Of a stretch of DNA of 64,000 bases, positions 28,169 to 49,841 are shown one piece after another. The DNA is from Natronorubrum halalkaliphilum (GTDB taxonomy: Archaea > Halobacteriota > Halobacteria > Halobacteriales > Natrialbaceae): NCBI RefSeq assembly GCF_009834785.1, contig NZ_WUYX01000003.1, positions 1 through 64,000 on the forward strand, in the 5' to 3' direction. Below the pieces are notes generated by a model. That model searched no databases. It was not told where the DNA came from and saw nothing but the letters and a program-made list of their open reading frames with translations. A program made the position numbers and the translations under genes. How positions within the stretch are numbered: the stretch's first letter is position 1; every line of letters begins with the position of its first letter.

Positions 28169-28330
28169 TTACCAATAACCGTCGGACTGGGGGAACTCGT
28201 GGCGATTATCGGATTGCCCGGCGTCGGGAAGACGACAGTCTTCCGCTTCCTTGCCCCGTTCGAACGACCACAGGGTGGCACGCTCGAGTACATCGGTACC
28301 GGTATCTGGCAACTCTCCAACGAGCGCAAC
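28169..28330 (+). pseudogene. Relic of an ABC transporter ATPase (N-terminal Walker A part only)
   Basis: The frame reads ITVGLGELVAIIGLPGVGKT and continues into TVFRFLAPFERPQGGTLEY, then IWQLSNERN. This is the Walker A region and start of the helical domain of a haloarchaeal tungstate/phosphate-type ATPase. No Q-loop, signature motif or Walker B follows; the frame stays open to 28507 but no longer reads as a protein. Upstream, a TAA at 28160 closes it. It marks the left edge of the AT-rich repeat region and suggests past recombination here. Confidence 0.65.
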
Positions 28331-28502
28331 ACGAGTACTGATCCAGTCGTAGTTTTTGTTCGCTCGAGAGTTCGAGCAGTGGCCACGAACGTATCGAATC
28401 TATTCTGCGATGGGACAAGCGATCTCCCGCGTGTAACATACAGTGGTGGCCGTGGCGTATCAAGACAATGGAGACGATTAGCTCCGCGGGTTCAAATCGT
28501 CG

Positions 28503-29406
28503 ATTAGGTCTTACGGTTATACTAATTCGTTAGGCTAAATTGGTGGTTGGCGGAGCGGGCAAAGGGTGCCGACTGTGCTTTGTAGCTCTTCTTAGCCAGT
28601 CTGTCGGGTGGTCTAGTTGACTAGTCTAATTGGGTAGGCTCTTCGGTTAGGTTAGCAGTTGTGGACAGGATCTCCAAGCAACCCTTCTGTCTATCTATAT
28701 GGGGTTGTGAGTTAGGCTACTGGTGTAGTCTAATCAGTTAGGCTGTATGGTTGGTTCAATAGTGCCTGGACGAACTGGGGCTGGAGATTAAGTCTATTCT
28801 GATGAATGGTGTGGGCATGCTATTTGGATAGGCCACTCAGTTAGATTATCTGGAAAGGCTTGACTGGGCACAACCACTGGGAATTCTGGCTGGAACGTGG
28901 TTGTTGGTTAGGCTGACCGATTAGGCCAATGAGAAAAGCCATTTGGATGGGGAAAAAGTCTAGCTAATTTTATAGGCGTATTGCGCAAGATGGGGGCTTT
29001 ACTTCCGGACCGCGACTACAACGACAGGGCTGCCGTTGCGTTTGTCCGCAATTACGGTCGGATTCAAACAGCACCGTTCTGGGTCAGGGGCTATCGGCGG
29101 GGTCGTTCGACCGGAGTACCTAGTCGACCGACCGAATCGGTTAGGCTATTCTGTTAGGCCATCCAAAAGCTCCAGCTGAATTAGTTTCTCTTCTTCCGTA
29201 TGAGTTAGACTAACCAATTAGGCTAATGGTCTGGTCTGTATTGGTGTCCTATTCCGAACGACTACAGATCTATGCTGGCCGAGAAATCTGGTCGGGAAGG
29301 GGGCTGGTCACTCGCAAATAGCAACCACTCACGGACTATTGGTTAGGCTAACCAGTTAGCCTTCCCGATTCGTATGACGAAGAATTATATTCGGGGAGAC
29401 TAACTG
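28503..29406 (+). repeat. Clusters of a 13-bp direct repeat upstream of parA: candidate centromere (parS-like) or iteron array
   Basis: The consensus unit is GTTAGGCTAACCA, in head-to-tail runs with exact 13-bp period. Unit starts: 28503, 28516, 28529; 28607, 28620, 28633, 28646; 28711, 28724, 28737; 28814, 28827, 28840, 28853 (outer ones degenerate); 28907, 28920; 29140, 29153; 29204, 29217; 29342, 29355; and 29394. The best matches are at 28711, 28907, 29140, 29204 and 29342. The first three clusters start exactly 104 bp (8 x 13) apart and the fourth 103 bp on. The array is AT-rich compared with the flanks, contains no gene, and its last unit sits between the parA TATA box and start codon. 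Confidence 0.75.
29385..29390 (+). promoter_or_regulatory. parA: TATA box of parA, followed by an operator-like repeat unit
   Basis: TTATAT is centred 25 bp before the parA ATG at 29413. A 13-bp repeat unit (29394-29406) fills the space between it and the start codon. Binding there would block transcription, so the locus is probably autoregulated. Confidence 0.5.
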
Positions 29407-29412
29407 GTTCGT

Positions 29413-30255
29413 ATGCTCACGTATACGACCTATTCGGAGGCCGGCGGCGTCGGAAAGACGACGGTCGGTGCGGCGTTGCTCGAGACCCACGCCAGTCACG
29501 GACTCGACGTCCTCGCGATCGATATGGACCAGCAAAACGGCTCGCTTACGTACCTCCTCGACGTCGACGCACCCCGGGACGACAGTCAGGCCGACAATAT
29601 CGTCCGCCATATGATCGATCGTCCGAAGGGGCCGCTTCAGGATCTCATTCTCGAGACCGACTACGGCTTCGATCTGCTACCGAGTCACAACATGCTCGAG
29701 AACCTGGAAGAGTTGTTGACGCGCGCTCAGCGGATGGCCGACGATCTGGGCGAGGGAGACGAGTTCGATCCGTACGACAGACTCCGACAGGTGCTGCTGG
29801 AGGCCGGTGTTCCACAGGAGTACGACGTGATCGTCATCGACCCGCCGGCGACTGCGGGCCCGCATCTCTACAACGCCGTGTCCGCGACGCGAAGCCTGGT
29901 GATCCCGGTCGAGCCGACGGGGAAAGGAATGCAGAGCGTACTCGGACTCGAGGAACTCGTCGACGGATTGGAGGATCGCCTCGAGGCAGAAATCGGCGTG
30001 CTCTCTGCGGTTCCGAACGGTATCGGTCGGACGTCCGATCAGGAGCGCTATCTCACCGAGATTCGAGACCGCGGCTATCCCGCACCGGTTGCACTCCGTG
30101 ATCGATCCTCGCTCTTCGAGGGCTGCTGGGACCAGCAGTGTACGCCGCGACACTACGTTACGGAACACCGAGACCGGCAACGCGATCACGAGATGGAGAC
30201 GCTCGAAAAGATCGACGAACTGGCGGCGACGATCGAGGAGGTGGGTGGCCTATGA
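29413..30255 (+). CDS. parA: ParA-family partition ATPase
   Basis: A 280-residue deviant-Walker ATPase. The P-loop is YSEAGGVGKTTVG near the N-terminus, where the usual signature Lys of KGGxGKT is Ala (residue 10). The A' motif LDVLAIDMDQQNGSLTY and Walker B YDVIVIDPPATAGP follow. There is no N-terminal DNA-binding domain, so it is of the small type Ib kind that needs a separate centromere-binding partner. The next gene overlaps by ATGA. It would segregate the replicon by ATP-dependent binding to nucleoid DNA. The array of 13-bp repeats upstream is the probable centromere. Confidence 0.88.
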   Translation: MLTYTTYSEAGGVGKTTVGAALLETHASHGLDVLAIDMDQQNGSLTYLLDVDAPRDDSQADNIVRHMIDRPKGPLQDLILETDYGFDLLPSHNMLENLEELLTRAQRMADDLGEGDEFDPYDRLRQVLLEAGVPQEYDVIVIDPPATAGPHLYNAVSATRSLVIPVEPTGKGMQSVLGLEELVDGLEDRLEAEIGVLSAVPNGIGRTSDQERYLTEIRDRGYPAPVALRDRSSLFEGCWDQQCTPRHYVTEHRDRQRDHEMETLEKIDELAATIEEVGGL

Positions 30256-30779
30256 AGAAAGGCTCCGGAAGCGATCCGTTCGCGGACGTCGTCCAGGAGG
30301 AAAGCGACGAGTCGGGCGGCGAGGAGACGACGGACGAAACGGGCAGTGTGTCCGATTCCGGCCCGGAATCGGAACAGTCAACGGCTGATCAGGCCGCGGA
30401 CACGACAGCGGATTCGACGGACGCAGCCGATGTGACTGAAACTGCCGAAACGACCGAGACAGGCGATGCGAGCACTGAGTCGGACGCGGACTCGAGTGAA
30501 AAAATCGTTAGTGAACCGCCTCAGGCGGGGGCCGATGACAACGGCGTCCCCTGGGTGTACGTCCGCGATAACGTCAAACAAGACCGCGAGATGGTGCAGT
30601 TCTACCTTCGAGATTATCTGGTCGATGCGGAAGGGGAGTTCGTCGATGCGGTAAGCGAGGAACTCGGTACGGACGTGTCGAAGACCGACGTTCGGGAGGC
30701 GGCCTACGAAGCGGCGATGCACAACGTCGACGAGGTTGCCGATCGTCTTCGTGACTGGGGATTCGAATCCGAGAAGTGA
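30252..30779 (+). CDS. Small acidic ParA partner, probable ribbon-helix-helix centromere-binding protein
   Basis: A 175-residue protein whose start overlaps the parA stop (ATGA), so the two are translationally coupled. Residues 1-95 are low-complexity and very acidic (Asp, Glu, Thr and Ser rich), probably disordered. Residues about 99-170 look folded: a strand-like REMVQFYLRDY, then helices EGEFVDAVSEELG and SKTDVREAAYEAAMHN and a final EVADRLRDWGF. One strand followed by two helices is the ribbon-helix-helix pattern of ParG- or omega-type partition adaptors. The flexible tail also matches that plan, though it lacks an obvious Arg finger. The role is inferred from position and pattern. I cannot name a family. 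Confidence 0.6.
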   Translation: MKKGSGSDPFADVVQEESDESGGEETTDETGSVSDSGPESEQSTADQAADTTADSTDAADVTETAETTETGDASTESDADSSEKIVSEPPQAGADDNGVPWVYVRDNVKQDREMVQFYLRDYLVDAEGEFVDAVSEELGTDVSKTDVREAAYEAAMHNVDEVADRLRDWGFESEK

Positions 30780-48812: not shown

Positions 48813-49841
48813 ATGAGTCGGCTAGGCTATCTGTTACGGCGACTGCTGCTGGCGATTCCAGTCGTCGTATTCGGAACGTCGTTGACGTTTCTGATTATTC
48901 GTATGGGGCCGATCGATCCAGCCGCCGCGATTGTCGGTTCACCGGATACGCCTTCGGCTCAACAACAGTACGAACGAACGCGGGAACAGCTCGGACTCAC
49001 GAAACCGCTCTGGGAGCAGTACGTCGATTTCATGACTGATCTGCTCACGTTCAACCTCGGGCAGTCGTGGGTTCTCAGTCCCGGAACGAACACCTACGAC
49101 CTGATCCTGACGTACGCTCCACGAACGCTCTGGCTCGGCTTTTGGTCGATCCTGATCGCGATCCTGTTCGGGATTCCGCTCGGCTTCTACGCCGGGCTCA
49201 ACCCCAACACGCGTATCGATTACTTCGTTTCCTTCGGGGGCATCGTCTGGCGAGCCATGCCGAACTTCTGGCTCGCGATCATCCTGCTTGCACTGTTTGC
49301 CCAGTCACAGCAGTACTTCTTCGGCTTCGACTGGAGTAATTTCGTGGTTCAATCGCCGGTGACCGGCGCCTATGAGTTCAGCGATATCACAACGAGGGAT
49401 GGGTTCATCCGCGAATTCAAGCGAGTCCTCCCGGCTGCGCTCGTTCTCGGATCGGCGTCGATGGGTAACGAGATGCGAATCGGCCGTACCGCAGTGCTCG
49501 AAACGATCAATTCGAATTACGTCGAGACGGCCAAAGCGAAGGGGCTCTCGGCGAAGAAAATCGTCTGGAAGCACGTCTTCCGAAACGCGCTTATTCCGTT
49601 GGTTCCGGTTATCACGAGCGAGGCGTTCCTCCTGATCGGTGGCGCAGTGCTTGTCGAAGTCGTCTTCGGCATCAACGGGCTTGGCTACCTGTTCTTCCAG
49701 GCGGTCATTAACGGTGACCTGCCGCTCGTTGCGTCGCTCATGTACGTGTTCATCATCGTACTCGTGGGCGTGAACATCCTGCAAGACCTGCTGTACACGA
49801 TCATCGATCCCCGTGTGGGGCTCGAGGAGGGAGGTGCATGA
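48813..49841 (+). CDS. ABC transporter permease, DppB type
   Basis: A 342-residue permease with about six helices. It begins SRLGYLLRRLLLAIPVVVFG, the DppB N-terminal helix. The coupling loop is SNYVETAKAKGLSAKKIVWK. Start ATG 48813 lies nine bases inside an open frame that starts with GTG at 48804. It overlaps the next gene by ATGA. A 220-bp gap separates it from the binding-protein gene. Confidence 0.9.
   Translation: MSRLGYLLRRLLLAIPVVVFGTSLTFLIIRMGPIDPAAAIVGSPDTPSAQQQYERTREQLGLTKPLWEQYVDFMTDLLTFNLGQSWVLSPGTNTYDLILTYAPRTLWLGFWSILIAILFGIPLGFYAGLNPNTRIDYFVSFGGIVWRAMPNFWLAIILLALFAQSQQYFFGFDWSNFVVQSPVTGAYEFSDITTRDGFIREFKRVLPAALVLGSASMGNEMRIGRTAVLETINSNYVETAKAKGLSAKKIVWKHVFRNALIPLVPVITSEAFLLIGGAVLVEVVFGINGLGYLFFQAVINGDLPLVASLMYVFIIVLVGVNILQDLLYTIIDPRVGLEEGGA

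Follow-up and report, generated by a model that had tools for sequence, protein, structure and literature searches.

An array of 13-bp palindromes upstream of parA as the probable centromere and operator of a haloarchaeal partition system

Introduction

Partition systems of type Ib, such as ParF-ParG of TP228 and delta-omega of pSM19035, comprise a small ParA without an N-terminal DNA-binding domain and a small downstream partner of the ribbon-helix-helix (RHH) type with a flexible N-terminal tail, and short repeats upstream of the genes serve as both centromere and operator. RHH proteins contact the bases of their sites through a beta-ribbon. The signature lysine of the deviant Walker A motif (KGGxxKT) is thought to be necessary for the formation of the ATP-sandwich dimer of ParA.

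In the archaeal SegAB system, a parA-like gene overlaps a downstream RHH gene (PMC5120986; PMC12284271). The SegB site is a 13-bp palindrome of 6-1-6 geometry with S at its centre (TCTAGA-S-TCTAGA), and its copies are single, distributed over the whole chromosome and mostly intragenic (PMC12284271). In the AspA-ParB-ParA system of the archaeal plasmid pNOB8, the DNA-binding protein spreads on its palindromic upstream site (PMC5120986). The nature of archaeal chromosome and plasmid centromeres, including whether they are clustered or dispersed, has been posed as an open question in a review (PMC5120986). Our search of open-access papers found no description of a haloarchaeal megaplasmid centromere, and the literature searched contained no binding or stability reports for the ParA-partner family considered here.

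The locus that we analysed lies in a 64-kb stretch of haloarchaeal DNA (hereafter, the window). Like type Ib systems, it has a short ParA, a downstream partner and an upstream array of short repeats. Unlike them, its repeats are odd-centred 13-bp palindromes that recur every 13 bp and form scattered as well as remote clusters, its ParA lacks the signature lysine, and its partner, which carries a long acidic linker, matches none of the known RHH families in sequence. It resembles SegAB (PMC5120986; PMC12284271) in being archaeal, in the overlap of the parA-like gene with a downstream gene, here for a predicted RHH protein, and in a 13-bp 6-1-6 palindromic site of which one copy precedes the start codon and others lie further upstream. 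This shared geometry is striking. In contrast to SegB sites, the units described here follow one another in tandem every 13 bp, are confined to one replicon and, where the annotation was checked, lie between genes. The pNOB8 system (PMC5120986) likewise serves the partition of an archaeal plasmid with a ParA and a palindromic upstream site, whereas it consists of three proteins, including the winged-helix AspA, and has a 23-bp site and no tandem 13-bp array. Regulators of the CopG/TraM/Arc type share the fold predicted for the C-terminal domain of the partner, but they act as repressors or relaxosome proteins and not as the partner of a ParA.

Structure of the array

Using an iterated weight matrix, 21 units of 13 bp were detected between positions 28500 and 29403, and the array ends at parA, which starts at 29413 (Table 1). 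The scores of 20 units exceeded 9; the unit at 29177, included in the 21, was marginal (7.8). The units form clusters of three, four and three and several of two, and within a cluster they repeat every 13 bp exactly. The best autocorrelation lag was 13, with 327 identities; 1000 shuffles that preserved dinucleotides gave 232 ± 13 (z 7.4). The array had 13 windows with 7/8 identity, compared with a shuffle mean of 0.4 and a maximum of 7. Thus, the clusters of a 13-bp repeat that a sequence-only reading had described in front of parA are real, and their periodicity is significant against shuffled sequence. The unit reads GGTTAG-G-CTAACC, a palindrome with an odd centre (6-1-6); therefore, the head-to-tail array is at the same time an array of alternating half-sites.

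Table 1. Position, strand and basis of assignment of the features at the parA locus (window coordinates)
Feature	Position	Strand	Basis
Cluster 1, three units	28500..28538	+	Weight matrix; paired-unit match at 28517-28538 with 1 mismatch
Cluster 2, four units	28604..28655	+	Weight matrix
Cluster 3, three units	28708..28746	+	Weight matrix
Cluster 4, two units, 116 bp after cluster 3	28824..28849	+	Weight matrix
Cluster 5, two units	28904..28929	+	Weight matrix and paired-unit search
Cluster 6, two units; top-scoring unit TCGGTTAGGCTAT (18.0)	29137..29162	+	Weight matrix
Cluster 7, two units, TTAGACTAACCAATTAGGCTAA, perfect paired-palindrome match	29201..29226	+	Weight matrix and paired-unit search
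Cluster 8, two units, TTGGTTAGGCTAACCAGTTAGCCTTC	29339..29364	+	Weight matrix, paired-unit search and orthologue comparison
Putative promoter element GAAGAATTATATT, BRE/TATA-like	29379..29391	+	Conserved upstream in 21 close orthologues
Single unit between TATA and ATG, core AGACTAAC, predicted operator	29391..29404	+	Weight matrix and orthologue comparison
parA, ParA-type ATPase, 280 aa, P-loop SEAGGVGKTT	29413..30255	+	Pfam AAA_31, 8.5e-18
Partner, 175 aa, predicted centromere-binding protein	30252..30779	+	4-base overlap with the parA stop (ATGA)

The G+C content of the array stretch was 49%, compared with 58% for the 64-kb window, and its composition is uneven. The segment 29000-29130, which forms a gap in the array between clusters 5 and 6, has 60% G+C and no units, and it is perhaps a remnant of inserted DNA. 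Directly before the array, a short open reading frame at 28199-28507 showed a weak match to an ABC-transporter P-loop and is probably a gene remnant. The array region was also read as RNA and gave no Rfam match. In the remainder of the window, the weight matrix found one strong single unit, at 48818. Across the source genome, the sole perfect match to one unit and all paired-unit matches were located on the contig of this locus (C50).

Conservation of the period and variation of the motif

The 13-bp period is shared by most homologous loci. Lag 13 exceeded all 100 shuffles in 45 of the 61 distinct homologous upstream regions, and approximately one quarter of the regions had no clear lag-13 signal. 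A score of 7 was reached by 30/43 parA-upstream windows compared with only 7/765 control windows (same loci, contig collection). Such repeats are therefore present upstream of most orthologous parA-partner pairs. Among the relatives, most of the array lies more than 1.3 kb upstream of parA in one locus (L039), and few units lie beside parA in another (L017).

The letters of the unit, in contrast, change with divergence. Upstream of ParA proteins with identities down to 37%, the 13-bp period was kept with other letters, and joint motif finding yielded GGTTAG-g-CTAACt, cAGTA-a-TACTGg, atCTGT-t-ACAGAt and taTCT-t-AGATac. These four motif classes are palindromic (r 0.87-0.96), and none of 2000 permuted matrices was as good. 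Palindromy is not universal, since the class 7 motif, TGTTCATT, has the 13-bp period but is not clearly palindromic; arrays of this type stand before parA on Haloferax mediterranei pHME132 and Halobacterium pNRC200 (L225 and L223). The motif class goes with the class of the partner. This association is consistent with co-evolution of site and partner but does not prove it, because both the motif class and the partner class follow phylogeny.

Restriction of the units to the parA replicon

Large plasmids are the main location of the orthologues of this parA; examples are Natrialba magadii pNMAG01 and Natrinema versiforme pNVE414. Paired units, defined as two adjacent units with at most two mismatches, were searched for in 13 genomes. 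In all ten genomes with this parA class, every paired unit was on the contig that carries parA, and none was found in the three searched genomes without this class. The 16 remote clusters were also all on the parA contig, for which P was 8.7e-17 under uniform placement. On annotated plasmids, whose gene table is incomplete, six remote clusters fall between the genes listed, and no gene was listed at the position of a seventh that was checked. A remote cluster of the source genome consists of three units between open reading frames at C50:85408-85442, outside the window and approximately 56 kb from parA.

A comparable restriction was found for the ATCTGT-t-ACAGAT class, which was searched for in 14 genomes: matches with zero or one mismatch were found only on replicons with their own parA class, with one stray. 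This stray, a class-11 paired unit at G120:C1:567210, has an orc1/cdc6 gene approximately 1 kb away, and its replicon has no class-11 parA; it is perhaps the relic of a fused replicon. In four genomes (G112, G113, G120 and G106), the GGTTAG and ATCTGT motif classes were found on different replicons within each genome. In G106, parA and all clusters lie within 53 kb (C1:1214483-1267953) on a contig of 4.19 Mb, which suggests that the system there belongs to a replicon integrated into the chromosome.

Since related plasmids share the same 13-bp spacing with different letters, it appears that every replicon of a cell is individually addressed. We consider it an evenly balanced prospect that haloarchaea with several large replicons use mutually orthogonal centromere codes, in which a single 13-bp palindrome geometry is spelt with different letters on each replicon, a dense cluster by parA is combined with scattered ones, and the sites are served by a new kind of RHH reader and a lysine-less ParA motor. 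The motif classes could also serve to predict plasmid compatibility.

ParA and its partner protein

The closest solved relatives of this ParA are Soj proteins. It is short, its P-loop begins at residue 8 (positions 29434-29463 of the window), and it has no N-terminal helix-turn-helix domain, as is typical of type Ib. In its deviant Walker A motif, however, the signature lysine is replaced by alanine (SEAGGVGKTT compared with NQKGGVGKTT in Soj). Among 99 distinct ParA homologues, the residue at this site was alanine in 86, serine in 13 and lysine in none; for 18 of the 86, the alanine was read from listed P-loops that the regular expression had missed. Strict membership of type Ib is therefore not claimed, and the type Ib assignment of the sequence-only reading holds as an analogy. 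An ATP-sandwich model for this lysine-less family would need another residue, which raises the question of how its ATP switch works. A profile search linked the ParA to 7dut, which we take to be SegA, at a marginal E of 0.0011, and this was the sole sequence link to that protein. No match to this ParA was found in a phage collection.

The partner gene overlaps or directly follows parA in nearly all loci. Alignment of the homologues revealed a conserved N-terminal MKxGxGxDPFA, a variable acidic linker and a conserved C-terminal domain; in the present partner, the disordered linker has 27 acidic residues and one basic residue among 84. Members of this family were found in 156 of 242 haloarchaeal genomes, with up to five copies per genome, and in no genome outside the haloarchaeal order in a phylum sample.

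Sequence comparisons did not assign the partner to a described family. It had no Pfam or NCBIfam match, the Pfam matches of 43 family members included no RHH family, the RHH_1 (PF01402) profile was not matched, and an hhalign comparison with haloarchaeal RHH_1 proteins gave no significant result. Searching the PDB by sequence gave nothing credible, and SegB was not among the matches to solved structures. The model of the full-length partner was confident in the C-terminal domain only; modelled alone as a monomer (AF2), this domain had a mean pLDDT of 84. Its best alignments, obtained with VIA-align only, were to RHH proteins, namely, CopG (1ea4; Z 4.7, 42/42 residues at 1.4 Å), TraM (4qpo; Z 4.8) and DinJ (Z 3.9), with VapB further down, and Foldseek returned no significant match for the full-length partner or the C-terminal domain alone. 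Given that the Z scores are below 5 and that Foldseek and the profile comparison were not significant, the C-terminal domain of the modelled partner is likely, but not proved, to be an RHH domain.

Function of the array

The periodicity, its recurrence in front of most orthologous parA-partner pairs, the palindromes, the restriction of clusters to one replicon, the tracking of the parA class by the motif class and the predicted RHH domain all support the proposal, already made in the sequence-only reading, that this is the centromere and operator of a haloarchaeal ParA system. We put the probability that the array is the main, parS-like centromere and the operator of a two-gene ParA-RHH partition system at about 0.85. 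Points that count against it are the loss of the signature lysine, the modest support for the RHH fold, the homologous regions that lack a clear lag-13 signal, the layouts of L039 and L017, the absence of orc1/cdc6 from the present contig and the 4.19-Mb contig of G106. In this role, the array looks like a handle for pulling a large plasmid into the daughter cells.

By analogy with type Ib systems and SegAB, a dimer of the partner would bind each 13-bp palindrome through its paired beta-ribbon. The head-to-tail arrangement at 13 bp would place such dimers side by side, so that with one dimer per palindrome adjacent dimers are proposed to touch, and a nucleoprotein cluster would be formed. Several clusters over approximately 900 bp, together with the remote clusters on the replicon, could act as a multivalent cargo. 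The N-terminal tail of the partner, MKxGxGxDPFA, borne on the long acidic linker, might contact ParA and trigger ATP turnover, although the conservation of this tail is only suggestive of an ATPase-stimulating role. The plasmid would then travel along a gradient of ParA, and the unit between TATA and ATG would allow the partner to repress its own operon.

Alternatively, the partner might be mainly an organiser of the plasmid, similar to SegB, with clusters whose task is to fold the replicon and not to provide a cargo handle. In Sulfolobales, scattered SegB sites connect organisation with segregation (PMC12284271), and the scattering of the present clusters over one replicon is similar. However, the present sites are dense by parA, few elsewhere and intergenic where checked, whereas SegB sites are mostly intragenic and chromosome-wide. 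We therefore regard a mainly organising function as unlikely, and the two roles are compatible.

It could also be that the units have no centromere role and serve only to control transcription of the parA operon, or of other genes on the plasmid. As the earlier reading had stated, one unit is located between the parA TATA box and ATG (29391-29403), and all 21 close orthologues listed have its core, AGACTAAC, at the same place with two substitutions or fewer. Promoter-proximal clusters at about -85 and -72 recur in most orthologues and in nearly all of the close ones. While this conservation favours a regulatory function, approximately 20 units over 900 bp are far above the need of an operator, and the further clusters, at distances of tens to hundreds of kilobases, are on the same replicon only. 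An operator without centromere function is thus quite improbable.

Short tandem repeats are also typical of iteron origins, and two of the six intergenic remote clusters on annotated plasmids adjoin orc1/cdc6 genes. However, no initiator gene lies beside the array, and no orc1/cdc6 gene was found on the 109-kb contig. Moreover, the motif class tracks the parA-partner class and its replicon, and the repeats stand before parA in nearly all loci. Hence, we consider it very unlikely that the units are iterons of an initiator-bound replication origin.

With the partition role as the preferred reading, this family of arrays offers a sequence-level answer to the question of the archaeal centromere, and it is testable in tractable strains, namely, those with pHME132 and pNRC200.

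Spacing between clusters

Successive starts of clusters 1 to 3 (28500, 28604 and 28708) differ by exactly 104 bp, as had been reported (with starts at 28503, 28607 and 28711). The fourth cluster had been placed 103 bp after the third; in the present analysis, the next clear cluster was at 28824, 116 bp on. These distances had been taken as the second of two layers of phasing. The layer of 13 bp within clusters stands, whereas the layer of about 104 bp between clusters is not general: in 29 related loci, 104 bp was not a preferred spacing (Rayleigh p 0.08), a period of 90 bp was not significant, and the spacing was broad, from 52 to more than 400 bp. The clusters in these loci had a weak shared 13-bp register (p 0.007). 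Therefore, the 104-bp spacing at this locus is probably incidental or a decayed duplication.

One relative has a more regular layout. In L019 (G120:C1, approximately -624 to -85 upstream of parA), clusters are spaced at 88-90 bp and alternate spacers are alike when read by eye, which suggests duplication of a segment of approximately 180 bp. That the whole array has no function and arose by chance or by mutation through local tandem duplication is, despite this example, scarcely credible, since period and palindromy outlast the deep divergence of parA while the letters change, and the spacers between the first three clusters of the present array are unlike each other (20/59 and 17/59).
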